DNA of 37,174 nt from Chitinophagaceae bacterium. Lineage in GTDB: Bacteria; Bacteroidota; Bacteroidia; Chitinophagales; Chitinophagaceae. The position numbers and the translations under genes are program-made. Below the pieces are notes generated by a model. The model was not told the origin of the DNA and ran no database searches. It saw only the letters and a list, made by a program, of their open reading frames with translations. The DNA is taken from assembly GCA_021299175.1 (NCBI GenBank), contig JAJTFY010000002.1, positions 1-37,174 of the forward strand. Direction: 5' to 3'. Of this stretch, positions 5,889 through 30,252 are shown piece by piece. How positions within the stretch are numbered: the stretch's first letter is position 1; each line of letters begins with the position of its first letter.

Positions 5889-5963
5889 ATGATATCGAAC
5901 AGAACCCGTTACTTCTTTTATTTTTATTACTACTTTACCGGTGGTACGGGAACTTTTTGTTGA
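5889..5963 (+). CDS. Aromatic leader peptide (Phe/Tyr-codon attenuator peptide)
   Basis: A 24-residue ORF runs from the ATG at 5889 to the TGA at 5961-5963. Residues 8-16 are YFFYFYYYF, nine consecutive aromatic codons (5910-5936) using both TAC/TAT and TTC/TTT, with one more Phe near the end. There is no Trp. Composition, size, position between a good promoter and pheA, and the RNA structures that follow are those of a ribosome-mediated attenuator leader, analogous to PheL of enterobacteria. Stalling of the ribosome on these codons when charged tRNA-Phe or tRNA-Tyr is scarce would keep the antiterminator arm at 5947-5963 free. Reaching the stop codon would cover it. The mixed Phe and Tyr content fits an operon that makes both amino acids. 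Confidence 0.85.
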   Translation: MISNRTRYFFYFYYYFTGGTGTFC

Positions 5964-6002
5964 AAATCAATTACTAAACAAAACATCAACATAAGGATCC
6001 CG
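5947..6002 (+). promoter_or_regulatory. Antiterminator helix of the Phe/Tyr attenuator
   Basis: Bases 5947-5963 pair with 5986-6002: CGGGA with TCCCG, CTTT with AAGG (one G-U), and TGTTGA with TCAACA. This gives 15 pairs in 17 positions, with single A-A and T-T mismatches. The 5' arm is the end of the leader ORF including its TGA. The 3' arm ends inside the 5' half of the terminator stem (5997-6003), so the two structures exclude each other. A ribosome on the TGA would cover the whole 5' arm, whereas one stalled at 5910-5936 would leave most of it free. Confidence 0.75.
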
Positions 6003-6025
6003 GCTAACCCCCGGGATTTTTTTTT
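5993..6025 (+). terminator. Intrinsic terminator of the Phe/Tyr attenuator
   Basis: ATCCCGG (5997-6003) pairs with CCGGGAT (6011-6017) across the loop CTAACCC, and nine T's follow (6017-6025). The stem can lengthen by weak pairs outward to 5993. It lies 12 nt before pheA, where it can only act on leader transcription. Confidence 0.88.
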
Positions 6026-6037
6026 AAGCAAAAACCA

Positions 6038-6922
6038 ATGATTGAGAAAAAATTGGAAAAGACATCGAAGCAGGGGGCATCCAATAAAGTGCAGCCAAGT
6101 TTGCCTGTAGCCATCCAGGGTTATGAAGGCAGCTTTCACCAGGTTGCTGCCAGGTCGTTCTATGGAAAAAAAGTTCAGATTCTTCCCTGTGCGACATTTA
6201 CTGAGGTGATTCGCCAGGCCTCCGACAAACACGCCACCATGGGAGGCATCATGGCCATTGAAAACTCCATTGCCGGGAGTATTTTACCCAACTACAATCT
6301 TCTCCAAAAGTCAAACCTTTTCGTTGCGGGAGAAGTTTACCTGCAGATTGACCAGCACCTGATGGTGAATCCTGGGGTAAAACTCGCAGACATAAAAGAA
6401 GTGCATTCTCATCCAATGGCACTGCAACAGTGCCTTGGATTCCTGAACCCGCATGGTTGGAAATTGATTGAAACCGAGGATACTGCCCTTAGTGCCAAGC
6501 ATGTTCAGGTGCGGAAGAGCAAGCATGTCGCAGCGATTGCCGGAAAGCTGGCTGCTGAATTGTTTGGTCTGGACATCATTGCACCCAAGATCCATGATGT
6601 CAAAAACAATTATACCCGATTTCTGATCCTCCAGCAAAGTCCTTCCGAGGTGGAGGGAGCCAACAAGGCATCCATCAATTTTCAAACAGATCATGCAAAA
6701 GGAAGGCTGTCTGAAGTGTTGACAGTAATTGCAAAAGAAGGCATCAACCTGAGCAAACTTCAATCCTTTCCAATTGCAGGAAGCAAGTTCAAGTATGGTT
6801 TCCATGCAGATCTTGAATTTGATACTATTGGTCAGTACAAAAAACTCATCGGTAAATTGGAAAAAAAGACAGCATCCCTTAGGATTCTGGGTGTGTACAA
6901 AAAAGGAAAATTCAACAAGTAG
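6038..6922 (+). CDS. pheA: Prephenate dehydratase
   Basis: This 294-residue monofunctional enzyme converts prephenate to phenylpyruvate, the last committed step to phenylalanine. The catalytic domain shows GYEGSFHQVAA (28-38), MAIENSIAGSI and the active-site motif NNYTRFLIL. A C-terminal ACT domain follows (KASINFQTDHAKGRLSEVL onward), the usual site of Phe feedback. Its regulatory motif reads KLQSFP in place of the common ESRP form. There is no N-terminal chorismate mutase; that activity is fused to the DAHP synthase two genes further on. It is the first gene after the attenuator, with its ATG 12 nt past the T-tract, and the aminotransferase gene starts 4 nt after its stop. Confidence 0.95.
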   Translation: MIEKKLEKTSKQGASNKVQPSLPVAIQGYEGSFHQVAARSFYGKKVQILPCATFTEVIRQASDKHATMGGIMAIENSIAGSILPNYNLLQKSNLFVAGEVYLQIDQHLMVNPGVKLADIKEVHSHPMALQQCLGFLNPHGWKLIETEDTALSAKHVQVRKSKHVAAIAGKLAAELFGLDIIAPKIHDVKNNYTRFLILQQSPSEVEGANKASINFQTDHAKGRLSEVLTVIAKEGINLSKLQSFPIAGSKFKYGFHADLEFDTIGQYKKLIGKLEKKTASLRILGVYKKGKFNK

Positions 6923-23427: not shown

Positions 23428-24372
23428 TCATCCTTTCGATTGGCGGTTGATCAACTTGTCCATCACATCAAGGTGTGGCAGTGTGATGATGGACAGAAAA
23501 ATAAAGACGGCTGGAAGCGGATCCATTTTCATTCCTGTGCCATTCCAGATAAAGGCCATGAAAATAAAGCCGAAGGCAGCTAGAAAGGTCATGGGGAGTG
23601 CATTCTTCCACAATGTCAAAGGTTTGGTTGCCATTTCTTCTTTTGCGTCATGTAAATACCTGAAAATGATTTCAAAGGATTTGATCGCATGCCATCCCCC
23701 AAAGTACAAAGCAAATGCAGGCAGCAAGGGAAGCTGTGAGCAGAGCATTAGAATTGCAAAGAGGTTGATGATGTATGGGTATGAAATGCTAATCTTATTT
23801 TTTTTATAGGCGATGGCTGCAATTGAGAAGAAAAGACATACCACTCCGCTAAAATAATAGATACCATTGCGCTTTAAATGCTCCATGGTTGTTTGAGCAA
23901 TCTCGGAACCTTGGGTAATGCGTAGAACAACAGAAGCTGTTTCTTCGAAATGAGACAACAGGATGATCATGAGCACAAGACTTCCCCATAGCATGCGGCT
24001 GAGGTTCCACGCCCTTGTATCAACGGCATTCGAGAGATCAGTTTCTCCAAAATGCCAGGCTGAAATGAGCAGAAAAATGATCAGGCTGATACCTGGAAAA
24101 AATATCCAGGAGGCTGAGTAAAGGAGGATGGCAAGTACGTATTTCCCAAGGAATTGCTGAATGCTAAAACTTTGTCCACTGCTGATGGCACTTGTTTTTG
24201 CAATGATATGGTCCAAGGCACCATGTGGAATGCCAGTGGCCCCAATCATGATGGCAAAATACATCAGCTGTATTTTTGCTGGGATTTCACCATTGTATTG
24301 TTGCCATGCAAAAAGGATCAATCCAATCAGAGCGTTGATCCAGGTAATTCGACTAAAGTTGCTTTTGTTCAT
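23428..24372 (-). CDS. blh: Beta-carotene 15,15'-dioxygenase, Brp/Blh family
   Basis: The 314-residue membrane protein has about eight hydrophobic helices. It carries the family's histidine motifs GIPHGALDH (48-56) and SAWHFGETD, and GGWHAIKSFE later. Blh enzymes cleave beta-carotene into two retinal molecules, the chromophore of proteorhodopsin. It follows the proteorhodopsin gene on the same strand, separated by 78 nt containing a strong hairpin. Carotenoid synthesis genes (crtE, crtB, crtI, crtY) are not in the window. The 37 nt to the GNAT start contain that gene's promoter. Confidence 0.92.
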   Translation of the reverse strand: MNKSNFSRITWINALIGLILFAWQQYNGEIPAKIQLMYFAIMIGATGIPHGALDHIIAKTSAISSGQSFSIQQFLGKYVLAILLYSASWIFFPGISLIIFLLISAWHFGETDLSNAVDTRAWNLSRMLWGSLVLMIILLSHFEETASVVLRITQGSEIAQTTMEHLKRNGIYYFSGVVCLFFSIAAIAYKKNKISISYPYIINLFAILMLCSQLPLLPAFALYFGGWHAIKSFEIIFRYLHDAKEEMATKPLTLWKNALPMTFLAAFGFIFMAFIWNGTGMKMDPLPAVFIFLSIITLPHLDVMDKLINRQSKG

Positions 24373-24396
24373 CTTGATTTTATGAACCGGGTTTAA

Positions 24397-24435
24397 ATAG
24401 AGAAAGGCCCAAGTAGAACAAGGGCCTTTCTCTAT
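24397..24435. terminator. Strong hairpin between the proteorhodopsin and blh genes
   Basis: ATAGAGAAAGGCCC (24397-24410) pairs perfectly with GGGCCTTTCTCTAT (24422-24435), giving 14 pairs with an 11-nt loop. No long T-tract follows in either direction; on the minus strand the run is TATTTAAAC. It may act as a partial terminator or as a 3' stabiliser of the rhodopsin mRNA. Confidence 0.6.
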
Positions 24436-24450
24436 ATTGTACAGTTCTTT

Positions 24451-25176
24451 TTATTTGGATTCAGAACGGCTAAGCAAGTAGATCACAAGACCAAAGCCAA
24501 TTTTGTTTACAGCATCACCGATGTTGTAAATGATATCCATGTTAAGACCACCAATGCCCAGAGCATCAGCAGTTACTCCGAACAATCCGCCTGGAGTACC
24601 AACGATGTATCCCAAAGGATAAATAGCCCATCCTACAAGAACGAACCATCCAAGGGTTTTGTTGGCTTTTGCAACTGCAGGAGATGCAGCAGTAGCGAGT
24701 TTGGAAACTTCTCCAAACCATACAAGGTAAACGATGTAGAAATAAGCTGCACCGCTGATTACACCCCAAAGAACAGACTGGTCTCTGTAGATGGTTTCGC
24801 CGAAATAGCCAGTTACAAGCATTACTACTGAAGCGAAGATTAATTTCCAAAGAAGGCCTGTTGTGCCACCAGATTTTTTGGTAATCAGGTAAAACTCAAC
24901 GCACATCAAAGGAACAGTCAACAACCAGTCAACATAACGGAAAAAGGTTGGTGAATCTCCAGTTTCGAGGTTGTAACCCCTCATGTAGTAATAGTGAACA
25001 GCTGCAATGAAGGTGATTAAACCTGACACAAGTACGGAAGTTCTCCACGCTTTGTCAGTGTTGCTCAACTCAAGAAAAAAGAAAACAGAGGCTGCCATCA
25101 TGGCCATTGTGCCAATAAAAAACGTAAAGGCAACATAATTGTCGGCCGCAACGGCCTCGAGGAAAAATGGACTCAT
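24451..25176 (-). CDS. Proteorhodopsin, predicted green-absorbing proton pump
   Basis: The 241-residue seven-helix rhodopsin has the helix C motif RYVDWLLTVPLMCVEFYLI. Asp83 is the Schiff-base proton acceptor, Thr87 the middle residue and Glu94 the donor, the DTE pattern of outward proton pumps. His61 matches the conserved helix B His (HYYYMRGY) and Arg80 the helix C Arg. The retinal lysine is Lys225 in DAVNKIGFGLVIY. Met91 stands at the tuning position (105 in the reference protein), where Met or Leu gives green and Gln blue absorption. The protein resides in the inner membrane and would use retinal made by Blh. The 160-nt AT-rich upstream region shows no exact TAnnTTTG box. Confidence 0.95.
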   Translation of the reverse strand: MSPFFLEAVAADNYVAFTFFIGTMAMMAASVFFFLELSNTDKAWRTSVLVSGLITFIAAVHYYYMRGYNLETGDSPTFFRYVDWLLTVPLMCVEFYLITKKSGGTTGLLWKLIFASVVMLVTGYFGETIYRDQSVLWGVISGAAYFYIVYLVWFGEVSKLATAASPAVAKANKTLGWFVLVGWAIYPLGYIVGTPGGLFGVTADALGIGGLNMDIIYNIGDAVNKIGFGLVIYLLSRSESK

Positions 25177-25336: not shown

Positions 25337-26644
25337 TTAAATATTTTTTAAAATATCCATCACAGTGGCCTTAAAACTGGCGTATTCAGGCGGCGTCAAT
25401 CGGGCAGATTTGTTTTTTTTCATGAGGAGACCAAGGTTTTCAGGCACTGAAGGTCTATGGCCGATGGCTTCCTGCACAACAGATGGAAATTTTACAGGGT
25501 GTGCTGTCCCCAGAATGATGCCTTTTTGCCCAGCATGGTCCTTCAAATGATCCTTGAGGGCATTATAGGCCACTGCTGCATGTGGGTCTAGCGTGTATTG
25601 AAATTCAGCATAAACTTCCTTTATTGTGCTTAATGTGTCCACATCACTGACGGAAATGCTGCTGATGGCTTCACATAGCCTTTGATGATCATGTTGAAAA
25701 AGGGCCAAGATCCTTGAAAAATTGCTGGGATTCCCAACGTCCATGGCATTGGAAAGAGTAGGGACGGCTGACCGCGGATGGTAATTTCCAGATTGGGTAT
25801 ATGCTGTGAAAACATCGTTGGCATTACAGGCTGCAATGAAATGATCAATGGGCAATCCCGACTGCTTCGCAACTAGACCGGCACTTAGGTTACCGAAGTT
25901 GCCACTCGGTACAGCAATGACCGGATCATGATGTTCTTCCCACTGTGTCAAGGCAAGTGCATAGTATATTTGTTGGGGAAGCCATCTGGCAACATTGATT
26001 GAGTTGGAAGAGGTCAGCATTACTCTTTTTCGAAGCTCCTCATCTAGAAAGGCCATTTTTACCAGTTTCTGGCAGTCGTCAAAATCACCTTCAATTTCAA
26101 GCGCATGGATGTTTCCGCCAAGAGCTGTCAATTGTTTTTCCTGCACAGGACTTACTTTGCCTGAGGGATAAAGGATGATGACTTCAGTGCCAGAAATGTT
26201 GTGGAAAGCGTCTGCTACGGCTCCACCGGTATCGCCACTTGTTGCAACCAATACGACAATTTTCTTTGCCAGTTTTCCTGCAAAAAACCCCATGCAGCGG
26301 CTGAGAAATCTTGCGCCAACATCCTTGAATGCAAGGGTGGGGCCATGAAAGAGTTCCAGGCTGTATATATTTTCGCTGATTGGTTGCAAGGGAAAGTCAA
26401 AGTCGAGTGTTTCTGCAATGATCCTGTGTAACTCGTTTTCAGGAATGGTATTCCCAACATACGGAGCCATGATTTCAAAACCAATTTCCGATTTTGATTT
26501 TCTTTTAAGGTTGCCGATAAAATTATCATTCCAAACCGGAATATTTTCCGGGTAATAAAGACCACCGTCGGGCGCCTGTCCCTGCAAGGTCGCCTCTCTG
26601 AAGTCAACAACATTATTGGTATTATTAAGGCTGAAATATCTCAT
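25337..26644 (-). CDS. thrC: Threonine synthase
   Basis: The 435-residue PLP enzyme converts O-phosphohomoserine to threonine. The start MRYFSLNNTNNVVDFREA and PDGGLYYPENIP are typical of ThrC. HGPTLAFKDVGARFLSRCMG holds the PLP lysine. ATSGDTGGAVADAF is the phosphate-binding loop, and SSNSINVARWLPQQIYYALA and VPSGNFGNLSAG follow in order. It starts 9 nt after thrB and closes the thrABC operon. No clear terminator was seen in the AT-rich 160 nt between it and the proteorhodopsin gene, so some read-through is possible. Confidence 0.96.
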   Translation of the reverse strand: MRYFSLNNTNNVVDFREATLQGQAPDGGLYYPENIPVWNDNFIGNLKRKSKSEIGFEIMAPYVGNTIPENELHRIIAETLDFDFPLQPISENIYSLELFHGPTLAFKDVGARFLSRCMGFFAGKLAKKIVVLVATSGDTGGAVADAFHNISGTEVIILYPSGKVSPVQEKQLTALGGNIHALEIEGDFDDCQKLVKMAFLDEELRKRVMLTSSNSINVARWLPQQIYYALALTQWEEHHDPVIAVPSGNFGNLSAGLVAKQSGLPIDHFIAACNANDVFTAYTQSGNYHPRSAVPTLSNAMDVGNPSNFSRILALFQHDHQRLCEAISSISVSDVDTLSTIKEVYAEFQYTLDPHAAVAYNALKDHLKDHAGQKGIILGTAHPVKFPSVVQEAIGHRPSVPENLGLLMKKNKSARLTPPEYASFKATVMDILKNI

Positions 26645-26653
26645 GGTATCTGT

Positions 26654-27577
26654 TTAAAAAGTAGTGATGCCTTTCATGTTCAACTTCGTCAGGTAGGTTT
26701 TGAAATCAATGCCGATGGCTGCATAAACCTGTTTCATCTCTTGTTCCACAGCAGCTGCTGTTTTTTCTTCTTTGCTCAGCATGAAAATAGAAGGGCCGCT
26801 GCCGGAAATGCCACCTCCAAGTGCTCCTGCTTCAAGGCTCCTGCGTTTGGTTTCTTCAAATCCTGGAATCAGGATGCTCCTTACAGGTTCAATGATGACA
26901 TCTTCGAGTGACCTTCCAATCAATGCATGGTCTCCTTGCATCAGGCCCGCAACCAATCCTGCAATATTTCCCCATTGCTTGATGGCCTGCTTCAGGGGTA
27001 CTTCTTTTTTGAGTATTTGTCTTGCATCTGCTGTGCGTACTTCGATTTGTGGATGAACCACGGTAATGAAAAGCTCAGGCGCAGAAAGACTGATTATGTC
27101 CAAGGGGTGGATGGATCGTATCAGTGTCACACCACCCAAGAGACAGGGTGTAATGTTGTCGGCATGTTTTACGCCACTGGCCACCTTCTCGCCGAACATC
27201 GCAAACCGAATAAGGTCATCATTGCTGAATGGGCTACCCAATAATTTGTTGGCCGCAAATACCGCACCGGCAGCACTCGCAGCACTGGATCCCAGTCCGC
27301 TGCCAGGTTTGATTCTCTTTTCTATGGTCAGTTTCCATTTTGGTACCTCATTCAATTCTTCCATCATGGCCAGTAAGGCCGCACCGGATACATTTTTCGC
27401 TGGTTCGGTGGGCAATCCATGGTCATCGAGGTGTATAATTTCTAATCCTGGATGATCTGTATTTTCCAAGGTCATGATGTCGTATGGTTCTTCCAGCGCG
27501 AGGCCCAGTATGTCAAATCCGCAAACGAGATTGGCAATGGTTGCCGGTGATTTGATGCTGATTTTATTGGTATTCAT
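26654..27577 (-). CDS. thrB: Homoserine kinase
   Basis: The 307-residue GHMP kinase phosphorylates homoserine for threonine synthase. SPATIANLVCGFDILGLAL at the N-terminus and the ATP loop PGSGLGSSAASAAGAV are the family signatures, and GALGGGISGSGPSIFML is the third GHMP motif. It begins 3 nt after thrA and ends 9 nt before thrC, so translation is probably coupled. Confidence 0.96.
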   Translation of the reverse strand: MNTNKISIKSPATIANLVCGFDILGLALEEPYDIMTLENTDHPGLEIIHLDDHGLPTEPAKNVSGAALLAMMEELNEVPKWKLTIEKRIKPGSGLGSSAASAAGAVFAANKLLGSPFSNDDLIRFAMFGEKVASGVKHADNITPCLLGGVTLIRSIHPLDIISLSAPELFITVVHPQIEVRTADARQILKKEVPLKQAIKQWGNIAGLVAGLMQGDHALIGRSLEDVIIEPVRSILIPGFEETKRRSLEAGALGGGISGSGPSIFMLSKEEKTAAAVEQEMKQVYAAIGIDFKTYLTKLNMKGITTF

Positions 27578-27580
27578 AAG

Positions 27581-30022
27581 TTAGTTGTTGATGGTTCTGA
27601 GTGTGTCCGCAAATACTCCGCTGGCAGTCACTTCTGCTCCGGCACCTGCCCCCTTGACGACCAGTGGTTGTTGATCATATCTCTCGGTATAGAAAAGAAC
27701 AATATTGTCTTTTCCATACAAGTGGAACATATCGCTTTCTGGTTTGATCTGCTGTAGACCTACCATGGCCTTCCCGTTTTCAAAACTTGCTACAAACTTG
27801 AGTTTGGCATTGTTTGCGTTGGCATGATCCAGCAGGGATTTGAAATGAGCTTCATGCTTGATCATCTCTTCGTAAAAATCGTCTACAGATCCATGCAGAC
27901 AACTTTCAGGAAGAAATCCATTGCATTGGATATCTTTCATTTCCATCGCCACACCAGCCTCTCTGGACAAGATCATGATTTTACGCATGACATCTTTCCC
28001 GCTGAGGTCCAGCCTGGGATCGGGTTCTGTAAATCCCTGCGCCTGTGCCTCTTTGACTACTGATGAAAATGATTTGGTTCCATCATAATTATTGAACACA
28101 AAATTGAGGGTCCCACTCAATACAGCCTCCATCCTGTTTATTTTGTCTCCACTTTTGATGATATCATTCAAGGTGCTGATGATGGGTAGTGCTGCACCAA
28201 CATTGGTTTCAAAAAGAAATTTGCAGTTGTAGGCAATCGCAAGCTCTTTGAGCTCTTTGTATCGTGCATAATTGTCTGAGGCTGCAATTTTATTGCAGGC
28301 CACGATAGACATGGATTTTCTCAAAAGGCTTGTATAAAGCCCTGGAATGATTTCATTGGCAGTGATGTCTACCAGCACACTGTTTCTGAGATTCAGCACA
28401 GTCATTTGTTGGGCAAATCCTGATGGATCTGAATCATCTCCTCTGTCCAGTAATTGCTCCCATTCTTCGAGATCTATTCCTTGCTGTTGAACAATCATTT
28501 TTCTGCTGTTGCAGAGTCCAACCACATTCATCTTGATCTTGTGCAGTTCTCCGATTTTTTCCGCTTGTTTTCTTATCTGTTGAATCAATTTTTTTCCAAC
28601 ATTTCCAGTGCCTACAATGAAGAGATTGAGTTCTTTTTTTGCGTCCTCAAAAAAAGATTCATGCAACACATTGATGGCCTTTTTTCTGTCGGCAGAATGA
28701 ATGACAGCAGAAATATTTCTTTCGTTTGATCCTTGTGCAATGGCCAAAACATTGACCCCGTTTCTGCCAAGGCTGCCAAACATCCTGCCGCTGATGCCTG
28801 GATGATTTCTCATGTTCTCTCCAACCAATCCGATAATACTGACATCTCCCGAAGCACTGATGGGTTGAATGATGCCATTGCTGATTTCTTTTTCAAAGGT
28901 ATGCTCAAGCATCTGAATGGCCTGATGTTTGGCGTCATTGCGAACTGCAACGCATATTGAATGTTCAGAGGATCCCTGTGAAATGAGAATGACATTGATG
29001 GATCCATCATTTAGTCCAGCGAAGACCCGCTTTGCAAAGCCAGGAACACCGATCATTCCGCTGCCTTCAATACTGATCAGTGCAATATTTTCCAACGAGG
29101 AGATACCCCTAATCATTTCAGCTTTTGGGGCCACATGTTGCTTTATGAGCGTCACTGGGCCGGACATGTTTTCAAACGCACGGATTGTGATGGGAATTCT
29201 TTTTTTAATCGCATTGTTCAATGCAGCCGGAGCTACAAGGTTGTTCTCAAAATGGCTCAACTCTATGGCCTCTTCATAAGTAATTTCTGAAAGTGTTTTT
29301 GCATTTTTCACCAGCATGGGATCCGCCGTAGTGTATGTATTTTGGGAAGACCAGATTTCAATTTCATGCGCATTGAGCAGTCCTGCGAAGAATGAAGCAG
29401 AGAGGTCTCCGCCACCTTTTCCAAATCCCAGGGTGTTGCCTTTGGGATCTCTAGCGGTGCTACCCGAAATGATGTGTATCCCTGGTTCGGGTTTGTTCCA
29501 TTTGTGCTGGATTTTTATTTTCGAGGCCTCTTCATTGTAGACGATTGCTCCATTGACCCTTTCTGCCACAAGGATCTCTGTTCCATCTGTCCAGTGGACA
29601 TTCTTGTAATTAGCATTGGCTGCAGCTGCAAATAAATATGATGAGAGGATGTGGGCATGGTTGATGATCTCATGAACTGTTTTTTCTGGAAGTTCTCCCA
29701 ACAATTGTACGCCTTTACAAAGTTCTTCCAATGTATTGAACCGTTGTTTTACAAAACTCAGGCTGGCACTTTGGTCTGTTACCGGAAGAATGGCCCTTGT
29801 CAGGGAAAGGTAGGAAATTTCGATGCTGGAAAGTTGGTCTGCATATCCGTGTGATTGGTCACGGGCAGACTGCACAATATCAAGCAAAGCTGTTTCAGTT
29901 TTTGAAGATCCGGTAACAACAACTGTTGTATCAGTATTTTTTAAATCTTCAAGATGGCCAATGGCCCTTAAAAACATTGCTGGATGTGAAAGCAAATTGC
30001 CTTCTATTTTGATCAATTTCAT
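27581..30022 (-). CDS. thrA: ThrA-type aspartokinase/homoserine dehydrogenase with a degenerate kinase domain
   Basis: The 813-residue protein has the ThrA layout: kinase domain (about 1-295), two ACT domains (about 310-460, with ISQGSSEHSI and IAQGSNERNI) and homoserine dehydrogenase (about 465-813). The dehydrogenase looks intact: FIVGTGNVGKK (468-478), FETNVGAALPIISTL, EAVLSGTLNFVFNNY and PRLDLSGKDVMRK. The kinase domain does not: KFGGTS is replaced by KIEGNL (5-10), the GERxS segment by HAHILSS (122-128), and DVDGVYTADP by SQNTYTTADP (226-235), with only TADP kept. Kinase activity is therefore doubtful, while threonine sensing and homoserine formation are plausible. It is the first gene of thrABC and lies downstream of a Thr-rich leader peptide. 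Confidence 0.9.
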   Translation of the reverse strand: MKLIKIEGNLLSHPAMFLRAIGHLEDLKNTDTTVVVTGSSKTETALLDIVQSARDQSHGYADQLSSIEISYLSLTRAILPVTDQSASLSFVKQRFNTLEELCKGVQLLGELPEKTVHEIINHAHILSSYLFAAAANANYKNVHWTDGTEILVAERVNGAIVYNEEASKIKIQHKWNKPEPGIHIISGSTARDPKGNTLGFGKGGGDLSASFFAGLLNAHEIEIWSSQNTYTTADPMLVKNAKTLSEITYEEAIELSHFENNLVAPAALNNAIKKRIPITIRAFENMSGPVTLIKQHVAPKAEMIRGISSLENIALISIEGSGMIGVPGFAKRVFAGLNDGSINVILISQGSSEHSICVAVRNDAKHQAIQMLEHTFEKEISNGIIQPISASGDVSIIGLVGENMRNHPGISGRMFGSLGRNGVNVLAIAQGSNERNISAVIHSADRKKAINVLHESFFEDAKKELNLFIVGTGNVGKKLIQQIRKQAEKIGELHKIKMNVVGLCNSRKMIVQQQGIDLEEWEQLLDRGDDSDPSGFAQQMTVLNLRNSVLVDITANEIIPGLYTSLLRKSMSIVACNKIAASDNYARYKELKELAIAYNCKFLFETNVGAALPIISTLNDIIKSGDKINRMEAVLSGTLNFVFNNYDGTKSFSSVVKEAQAQGFTEPDPRLDLSGKDVMRKIMILSREAGVAMEMKDIQCNGFLPESCLHGSVDDFYEEMIKHEAHFKSLLDHANANNAKLKFVASFENGKAMVGLQQIKPESDMFHLYGKDNIVLFYTERYDQQPLVVKGAGAGAEVTASGVFADTLRTINN

Positions 30023-30025
30023 GTT

Positions 30026-30118
30026 GGTTGTATTGCAAAGTAAAAGTGGAACGGATATTATCCGAGAATCAGCAGCTGCCCAATGGTGATATGGAATGAT
30101 ACAACCCTAGCGGGTTGT
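30026..30118 (-). promoter_or_regulatory. Switchable RNA structure between the Thr leader and thrA
   Basis: On the minus strand the last Thr codons (ACAACCC, 30118-30112) pair with GGGTTGT (30107-30101) around the leader stop, giving 7 pairs with a 4-nt loop. The same segment extended, GGTTGTAT (30106-30099), can instead pair with ATACAACC (30033-30026), 8 pairs, which lies 3 nt before the thrA ATG. The two are mutually exclusive, and the second would hide the thrA start region. A smaller hairpin, CGGAT/ATCCG (30064-30052), followed by a poor T-rich stretch, could be a weak terminator. No strong intrinsic terminator is present. Confidence 0.5.
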
Positions 30119-30202
30119 TGTAGTGTATGTTGTTGTGAAAGCAGCAAACATGGCTGTGGAAGCCTTGTTCAATTGAATAGTATATGTTTTTGTTGCTACC
30201 AT
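30107..30202 (-). CDS. Threonine-rich leader peptide of the thr operon
   Basis: A 31-residue ORF runs on the minus strand from the ATG at 30202 to the TAG at 30109-30107. It has 11 Thr, seven of them in the last nine residues, TTTYTTTTR (30136-30110), and starts MVATKTYTIQ. A TAGTTTTG promoter lies 18 nt upstream and thrA begins 84 nt downstream. The analogy to ThrL of enterobacteria is direct, although this peptide has one Ile and no Ile run, so it would respond to Thr alone. An internal ATG at 30151 would give a 14-residue version, MFAAFTTTYTTTTR. Stalling on uncharged tRNA-Thr would change which RNA helix forms downstream. Confidence 0.8.
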   Translation of the reverse strand: MVATKTYTIQLNKASTAMFAAFTTTYTTTTR

Positions 30203-30220
30203 TTCACTTTTTAGACAATA

Positions 30221-30252
30221 CAAAACTAAGCATTTTCTGTTATTTGTTGAAA
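30221..30252 (-). promoter_or_regulatory. Promoter of the thr operon: TTTC, 20-nt spacer, TAGTTTTG
   Basis: On the minus strand TAGTTTTG (30228-30221) matches TAnnTTTG exactly. TTTC at 30252-30249 is a one-mismatch -33 element at 20-nt spacing. The leader ATG at 30202 follows 18 nt later. Confidence 0.7.

Follow-up and report, generated by a model that had tools for sequence, protein, structure and literature searches.

The thrABC operon of a Chitinophagaceae bacterium is preceded by a short open reading frame rich in Thr codons, the end of which folds into a hairpin (H1); downstream of it, at a nearly constant spacing, come the conserved motif CATATYAYC and a second, small hairpin (H2), and this arrangement recurs upstream of thrA in relatives without a U-tract terminator. 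In the reading we favor, which seems to us about as probable as its negation, the element is a Thr- and Ile-sensing, ribosome-mediated attenuator of thrABC, the OFF structure of which would be H1 and not a downstream terminator. Its components and the genes that they precede were located in the window (the whole stretch of 37,174 nucleotides analyzed here) as follows:

30221..30228, minus strand: -7 promoter box TAGTTTTG, of the Bacteroidota type TAnnTTTG, from the sequence.
30107..30202, minus strand: Thr-rich leader ORF of 31 codons (ATG 30202, TAG 30109-30107), from the sequence and relatives.
30101..30118, minus strand: hairpin H1, ACAACCC-GCTA-GGGTTGT, spanning the final Thr codons and the stop, from the sequence and predicted folds.
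30085..30093, minus strand: conserved motif CATATCACC, consensus YATATYAYC, between H1 and H2, from its spacing in relatives.
30071..30080, minus strand: small hairpin H2, GGC-AGCT-GCT, from covariation in relatives.
27581..30022, minus strand: thrA, fused aspartokinase-homoserine dehydrogenase (Pfam AA_kinase, ACT, NAD_binding_3 and Homoserine_dh).
26654..27577, minus strand: thrB, homoserine kinase of the GHMP kinase type (Pfam GHMP_kinases_N and GHMP_kinases_C), between thrA and thrC.
25337..26644, minus strand: thrC, threonine synthase (Pfam Thr_synth_N and PALP).

The three thr genes thus share the minus strand and each matches its Pfam domains, and thrA is presumed to be the gene under control of the leader element. 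Downstream of thrC, at 23428-25176 on the same strand, a bacteriorhodopsin-like gene adjoins a beta-carotene 15,15'-dioxygenase gene, and two genomes of the same genus carry a second thrA-like gene (G018:C4:23884-26322 and G029:C260:851-3235). The sequence TAnnTTTG has been described as a promoter consensus (PMC9723704). In 79 of 135 leaders of the relatives, the pattern TAnnTT[TCA]G occurs 85-165 nt upstream of the stop codon, versus 18.8 expected and versus 7 of 132 in a control window, a finding that argues against transcription starting downstream of 30136.

Among the matches listed, 158 of the 170 thrA loci from the genus and family that could be read carry the full leader element, and 12 lack it. 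In a first set of 56 loci, three of which were excluded because their sequence ends before the leader (L019, L027 and L029), it is present in 51 of 53 readable loci and absent in L020 and L023. In a further 118 upstream stretches, one of which ends early and was excluded (L162), it is present in 107 of 117 readable cases (101 by script, 6 by eye) and absent in ten (L190, L199, L209, L221, L229, L232, L237, L238, L239 and L246), two of which (L232 and L239) still have a hairpin and a leader that contains Thr, but not CATAT. The family loci G192 and G245 lie outside the sample. A script scoring H1, the Thr run and the motif detects the element in 101 of the 118 thrA upstream stretches, versus 26 of 1180 shuffles, one of 118 reverse strands and one of 30 hisG upstream stretches; the element is conserved beyond chance. 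Fifty of the 51 first-set loci were aligned (L031, a copy of the L014 stretch, was left out), and 157 sequences were anchored, ten of them by hand (four plus six). After dropping 22 redundant sequences, 135 were retained as non-redundant at 85%, and the set of 131 leaders used below comprises these minus four without a thrA start within 150 nt.

The leader peptide, MVATKTYTIQLNKASTAMFAAFTTTYTTTTR, contains 11 Thr residues, seven of them among the final nine codons. The initial annotation of this region had proposed a 31-codon leader of Thr codons ahead of thrABC, and the relatives bear it out, since both the ORF and its Thr run are kept apart from a minority of losses; a short ORF with a cognate codon run upstream of a biosynthetic operon is what would be expected of an attenuator. 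At residues -16 to -2 of the 135 leaders, Thr accounts for 42.7% and Ile for 17.8%, and a Thr codon falls within the final four leader codons in 125 of them. The same annotation had set the leader apart from E. coli ThrL by its lack of Ile codons, which holds in the window and fails in the relatives: the Ile shortage is local to the window, and Ile codons are found in the leaders of the relatives just as in E. coli ThrL. No ATG is present in 39 of the 135 leader frames, the start codons of which are hence uncertain. The leader stop precedes CATATYAYC in every one of the 135, with 16-21 nt between the start of the stop codon and CATAT in 124 and 3-10 nt in the other 11. In these 11 (L053, L054, L056, L154, L166, L212, L215, L231, L245, L247 and L248) the stop lies beyond H1, and the ribosome must therefore read through the hairpin.

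The arms of H1, at 30118-30112 and 30107-30101 with loop GCTA, are present in predicted folds and correspond to a 7-bp pairing (ACAACCC/GGGTTGT) of the segment after the stop with the last Thr codons, which had already been noted in the window and which is conserved in relatives as H1. A stem of at least 5 bp is found in all 135 anchored relatives, largely by construction of the search, as the anchor scripts required a hairpin of at least 5 bp and a nearby [AG]TA[TC], fixing the presence of H1 and part of the letters of CATAT; the shuffled, reverse-strand and hisG counts given above serve as the control on this point. The two arms change together (CAACCC/GGGTTG, AATCCGC/GCGGATT, TTACCCT/AGGGTAA, ACCCTC/GAGGGT, AACCCC/GGGGTT), the mean MFE of H1 is -10.6 versus -3.9 for shuffled sequences, and 92.4% (A2) and 89.9% (A3) of its cells are paired in the MAFFT alignments. 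Cells changed on both sides beat all 500 shuffles (9 versus 2.0 in A2; 25 versus 12.9 in A3 for the two hairpins combined), but in the same alignments neither the number of pairs changed on both sides nor that of further pair types exceeds the shuffled level (97 and 422 of 500 in A2; 296 and 366 of 500 in A3). Given that the hairpin overlaps the codon run and the stop codon, the position of the ribosome could govern its folding, as an attenuator would demand.

The conserved element downstream of the leader, that is, CATATYAYC at a nearly fixed distance from H1 followed by the covarying H2, had been missed by the initial annotation. From the first base of the H1 3' arm to CATAT there are 14, 15 or 16 nt in 129 of 135 leaders, and the spacer before CATAT is T-rich at -4 to -2 (83, 97 and 71 of 135). 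The joint between the hairpins is conserved by its letters, and H2 mainly by complementarity. Its GGC..GCY is present in 120 of 135 leaders, versus 19.6 expected with the tails shuffled; the next inner pair is complementary in 61 of 88 (34.8 expected) and Watson-Crick in 58 (24.7 expected, with none of 5000 shuffles as high), and the third-level inner pair, at 15 of 28 versus 12.4, is not significant. Most of the 15 leaders without GGC..GCY show, by eye, other complementary arms (AGGA/TCCT, GGGGA/TCTCC, ACCAC/GTGGT). The folding energy of H2 is not separable from that of shuffles (-3.82 versus -3.59), a failure that would count against the strength of H2 and not against its existence, for which covariation is the basis, and H2 is just 65.2% paired on the MAFFT alignment because its columns are split there. 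A second copy of the motif sits 69-120 nt before CATAT, in or near the leader start, in a frame that mostly reads HII or HIT (L049 and L193 are examples).

According to the attenuator that we favor, when Thr and Ile are plentiful the ribosome would reach the stop codon in H1 and depart, H1 would then fold behind RNA polymerase and, with CATATYAYC at its nearly fixed distance, the polymerase would pause and give up before thrA, probably with the help of Rho, NusG or some other factor. Under shortage of Thr or Ile, the ribosome would stall on the codons that form the H1 5' arm, H1 would be blocked and transcription would enter thrA. We infer this direction of control because, among the conserved structures found, H1 alone is ribosome-governable and it is the sensing codons that form its 5' arm: a folded H1 should mean OFF and a blocked H1 should mean ON. 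That both the letters of CATATYAYC and its distance are conserved suggests that the paused polymerase reads it as a signal. Candidates for the OFF step, all unproven, are Rho, NusG, weak intrinsic release and a protein acting on CATATYAYC-H2. Several observations count against this attenuator: it has no need of H2, whose folding would come only after the pause; in 11 of 135 leaders the ribosome reaches the stop codon only past H1; and the full element is missing in 12 of 170 readable thrA loci. Nor is the E. coli pause consensus followed, as the base after the conserved Y is A in 135 of 135 leaders, under a search pattern that admitted A or G.

Another way to read H1-CATATYAYC-H2 is as the binding or cleavage site of a putative protein, either an RNA-binding regulator or an RNase, with leader translation merely deciding whether the site is folded and free. 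Conservation of the joint by letters and of H2 mainly by complementarity would suit such a site, as would the second YATATYAYC copy, which is found in the leader in 74 of 135 cases versus 16.7 expected, 58 of the 74 being in one reading frame. This frame bias, however, could reflect selection on the peptide (HII or HIT), and the fixed distance to H1 would fit polymerase geometry at least as well, so that we regard a protein site as rather unlikely.

The annotated absence of a strong intrinsic terminator between the leader and thrA is confirmed, the nearest structure being a 5-bp hairpin at 30064-30052 followed by TTCCACTTTTACTTT. In equal 175-nt windows, only 5 of the 135 thr leaders contain a site that passes a strict terminator scan, and that site is always H1 or H2 itself; among his leaders of the family the scan succeeds in 28 of 28 (30 loci, with two excluded for having no His leader by script), and among shuffled his windows in 5 of 280. 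An earlier strict scan, in which the his windows were longer than the thr windows, had given 5 of 131 and 29 of 30, respectively. The his leaders combine His codon runs with GGCTTACC..GGTAAGCC-like hairpins and T-runs, and the thr leaders, by contrast, do not present the classical U-tract intrinsic terminator. The further proposal that control here is other than by the classical ThrL terminator is supported by this strict scan. H1 could also be a weak intrinsic terminator with a poor U-tract, in which case the system would be a classical attenuator with its terminator moved onto the leader stop codon. Under lax criteria, 42 of 131 thr leaders do yield terminator-like sites, which mostly coincide with H1, and the T-rich spacer at -4 to -2 is congruent with this idea, but the low strict counts in both leader sets, and conserved letters that start about 8 nt past the stem, where they would lie at or beyond the expected place of RNA release, argue that it is unlikely.

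Rho loading sites are C-rich and G-poor. The Thr/Ile run has such a composition at -75 to -22 (30.0% C, 11.4% G), and the element might therefore provide pause timing alone, with termination at an unrecognised Rho site; the C-rich composition, however, follows from Thr and Ile codons alone, and C is not enriched between +30 and +65 (19.0%), which makes this alternative quite improbable.

The search for competing structures was equally negative. Seven pairings, namely that of the H1 3' arm with the downstream region and six that seek competing partners for the H1 arms, CATATYAYC and H2, are none of them above the shuffled level, and no mutually exclusive antiterminator helix is found in this set, to which the pairing of the H1 5' arm with the downstream region does not belong; nor is there a third hairpin at +37 to +64 (-0.77 versus -0.79 shuffled). 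The initial annotation had postulated a switch in which RNA just past the leader stop would control translation by pairing with the bases immediately upstream of the thrA ATG, but this is very improbable and not supported as a general mechanism: although the 8-bp helix (GGTTGTAT/ATACAACC, 30106-30099 with 30033-30026) is present in the window, where 30 shuffles of the downstream region never reach its score, it is not conserved, the pairing of the H1 3' arm with the region before thrA being at the shuffled level in 131 leaders (11.74 versus 11.74), and a Thr-stalled ribosome would free the segment that blocks thrA, which is the wrong direction. For the last 18 nt before the thrA ATG the values in the 131 leaders are 10.10 versus 9.70 shuffled, and CAACC within 25 nt of the ATG is confined in the non-redundant set to L001 and L007; two close relatives outside that set, L004 and L006, have CAACC near the ATG too. 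Covariation in the alternative helix, on which the switch had been made to depend, is thus lacking insofar as the pairing shows no conservation in these 131 leaders, and what stands of the original interpretation is a Thr leader with control of a non-ThrL kind, whereas the start-codon switch is not supported.

With regard to the spread of the element, a search of the own genome with model R1 gives five matches at E up to 10, the thr site at 6.4e-10 and the next at 4.4 (E-values of R1 and R2 are rough), and none besides the thr site stands out before other operons. Across the phylum, R1 matches 12 of 395 genomes: ten of the same family (own genome included), G365 from the same class and G460 from another class, the last two with the element directly before a thrA-like ORF and with a Thr leader. 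Model R2 matches 17 of 395 genomes of the class, comprising eight of its own seeds, two further family members (G069 and G074), five new matches outside the family and two false ones. The matches in G371, G361 and G345 precede a thrA-like ORF (about the first 100 residues), and in G868 and G889 the leader and the element are seen by eye. The two false matches (L261 and L264, in genomes G861 and G902) look like repeat-rich stretches by eye and were dropped. Inspection by eye of thrA loci of the class reveals leader, hairpin and CATAT or TATAT in L075, L077, L078, L080, L081 and L086, a hairpin with CATAT 4 nt after it in L096, and leader and hairpin with no CATAT after in L085, L089 and L094; such a leader is not seen in L076, L079, L082, L084, L088, L090 and L091, nor in L092, L095, L097, L098, L099 and L100. 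All three loci of family f3 of the class (L083, L087 and L093) carry, by eye, a Thr/Ile-rich leader and a strong U-tract terminator before thrA, the classical form instead of CATATYAYC, and element and terminator hence appear to be interchangeable. Taken together, these searches place the element ahead of thrA in several further families of the class, and in a single genome of another class. With confidence a little short of even, we tentatively postulate a Bacteroidota-wide class of attenuators devoid of terminator and antiterminator, in which a ribosome-gated hairpin would keep a fixed spacing to a sequence-specific polymerase signal (CATATYAYC), with a second hairpin after it, and would stop transcription by a hitherto undescribed mechanism.

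Attenuation by leader peptides is well known; the H1-CATATYAYC-H2 form without a terminator appears to be new. Strong clues for leader-peptide attenuation before amino-acid operons have been reported in Flavobacterium psychrophilum (PMC9723704), in a paper whose main text, supplement aside, contains neither "threonine" nor "thrA", and leader-like sORFs have been noted in Bacteroides (PMC7366714). The element was not found described in the portions covered of these two sources, PMC9291695 and PMC2864571, nor was a report of it found in the open-access literature, subscription papers, preprints and supplements being outside that search. At the Rfam gathering threshold the window gives one tRNA alone and eight relatives give nothing, and Thr_leader, T-box and Bacteroid-trp are absent from the five weak Rfam matches around the leader. 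The thr element offers a clear and testable example of attenuation for which, besides the leader and one hairpin, no classical parts were found, with a contrast at hand in the classical his leaders of the same family and in a Phe/Tyr attenuator of the same window. To our knowledge, pausing and factor-dependent termination are little mapped in Bacteroidota, and CATATYAYC, if it is a polymerase signal, would provide an entry to both.

A known system that invites comparison is the thrL attenuator of E. coli (Rfam family Thr_leader, accession RF00506). As in the element presented here, a leader peptide tied to Thr and Ile precedes thrABC in E. coli and the leader forms hairpins, and thrL has leader pauses, of which thrL1 is prolonged by NusA, in keeping with the attenuator that we favor; breaking the thrL hairpins hardly shortened the pauses, which counts against it (PMC9291695). 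Unlike thrL, the element has no U-tract terminator and no terminator/antiterminator pair, and it has CATATYAYC and H2. The hairpin of the E. coli hisL pause forms where the leader ORF ends and includes its stop codon. It is placed about 10 nt behind the RNA 3' end (PMC9291695), in likeness to the 8 nt that here commonly separate a 6-bp stem from the C of CATAT, and the spacing of a hisL-type pause (about 10-11 nt) would fit if the predicted 3' end is at the CAT of CATAT. On the other hand, the E. coli pause consensus G-10 Y-1 G+1 is not followed, with Y in 133 of 135 leaders and then invariably A, and no his-type terminator comes after the thr element. Bacteroid-trp RNA (RF01692), linked to trp genes and Trp codons, is likewise a cis-regulatory RNA of Bacteroidetes, without a gathering-score match in the window or in the eight relatives. 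The window itself harbors a further leader, identified by eye:

5889-5963, plus strand: Phe/Tyr-rich leader peptide MISNRTRYFFYFYYYFTGGTGTFC, behind TATATTTG.
5997-6017, plus strand: hairpin of the terminator of the Phe/Tyr leader, with a T-run to 6025.

This leader precedes a pheA-like ORF at 6038 that opens an apparent aromatic amino-acid cluster. It shares with the thr leader a run of cognate codons but has a classical terminator, and is by eye a classical attenuator; in a similar vein, the his leaders of the same family have their cognate codon run, as here, and yet keep the classical terminator in every one of the 28 leaders scanned.
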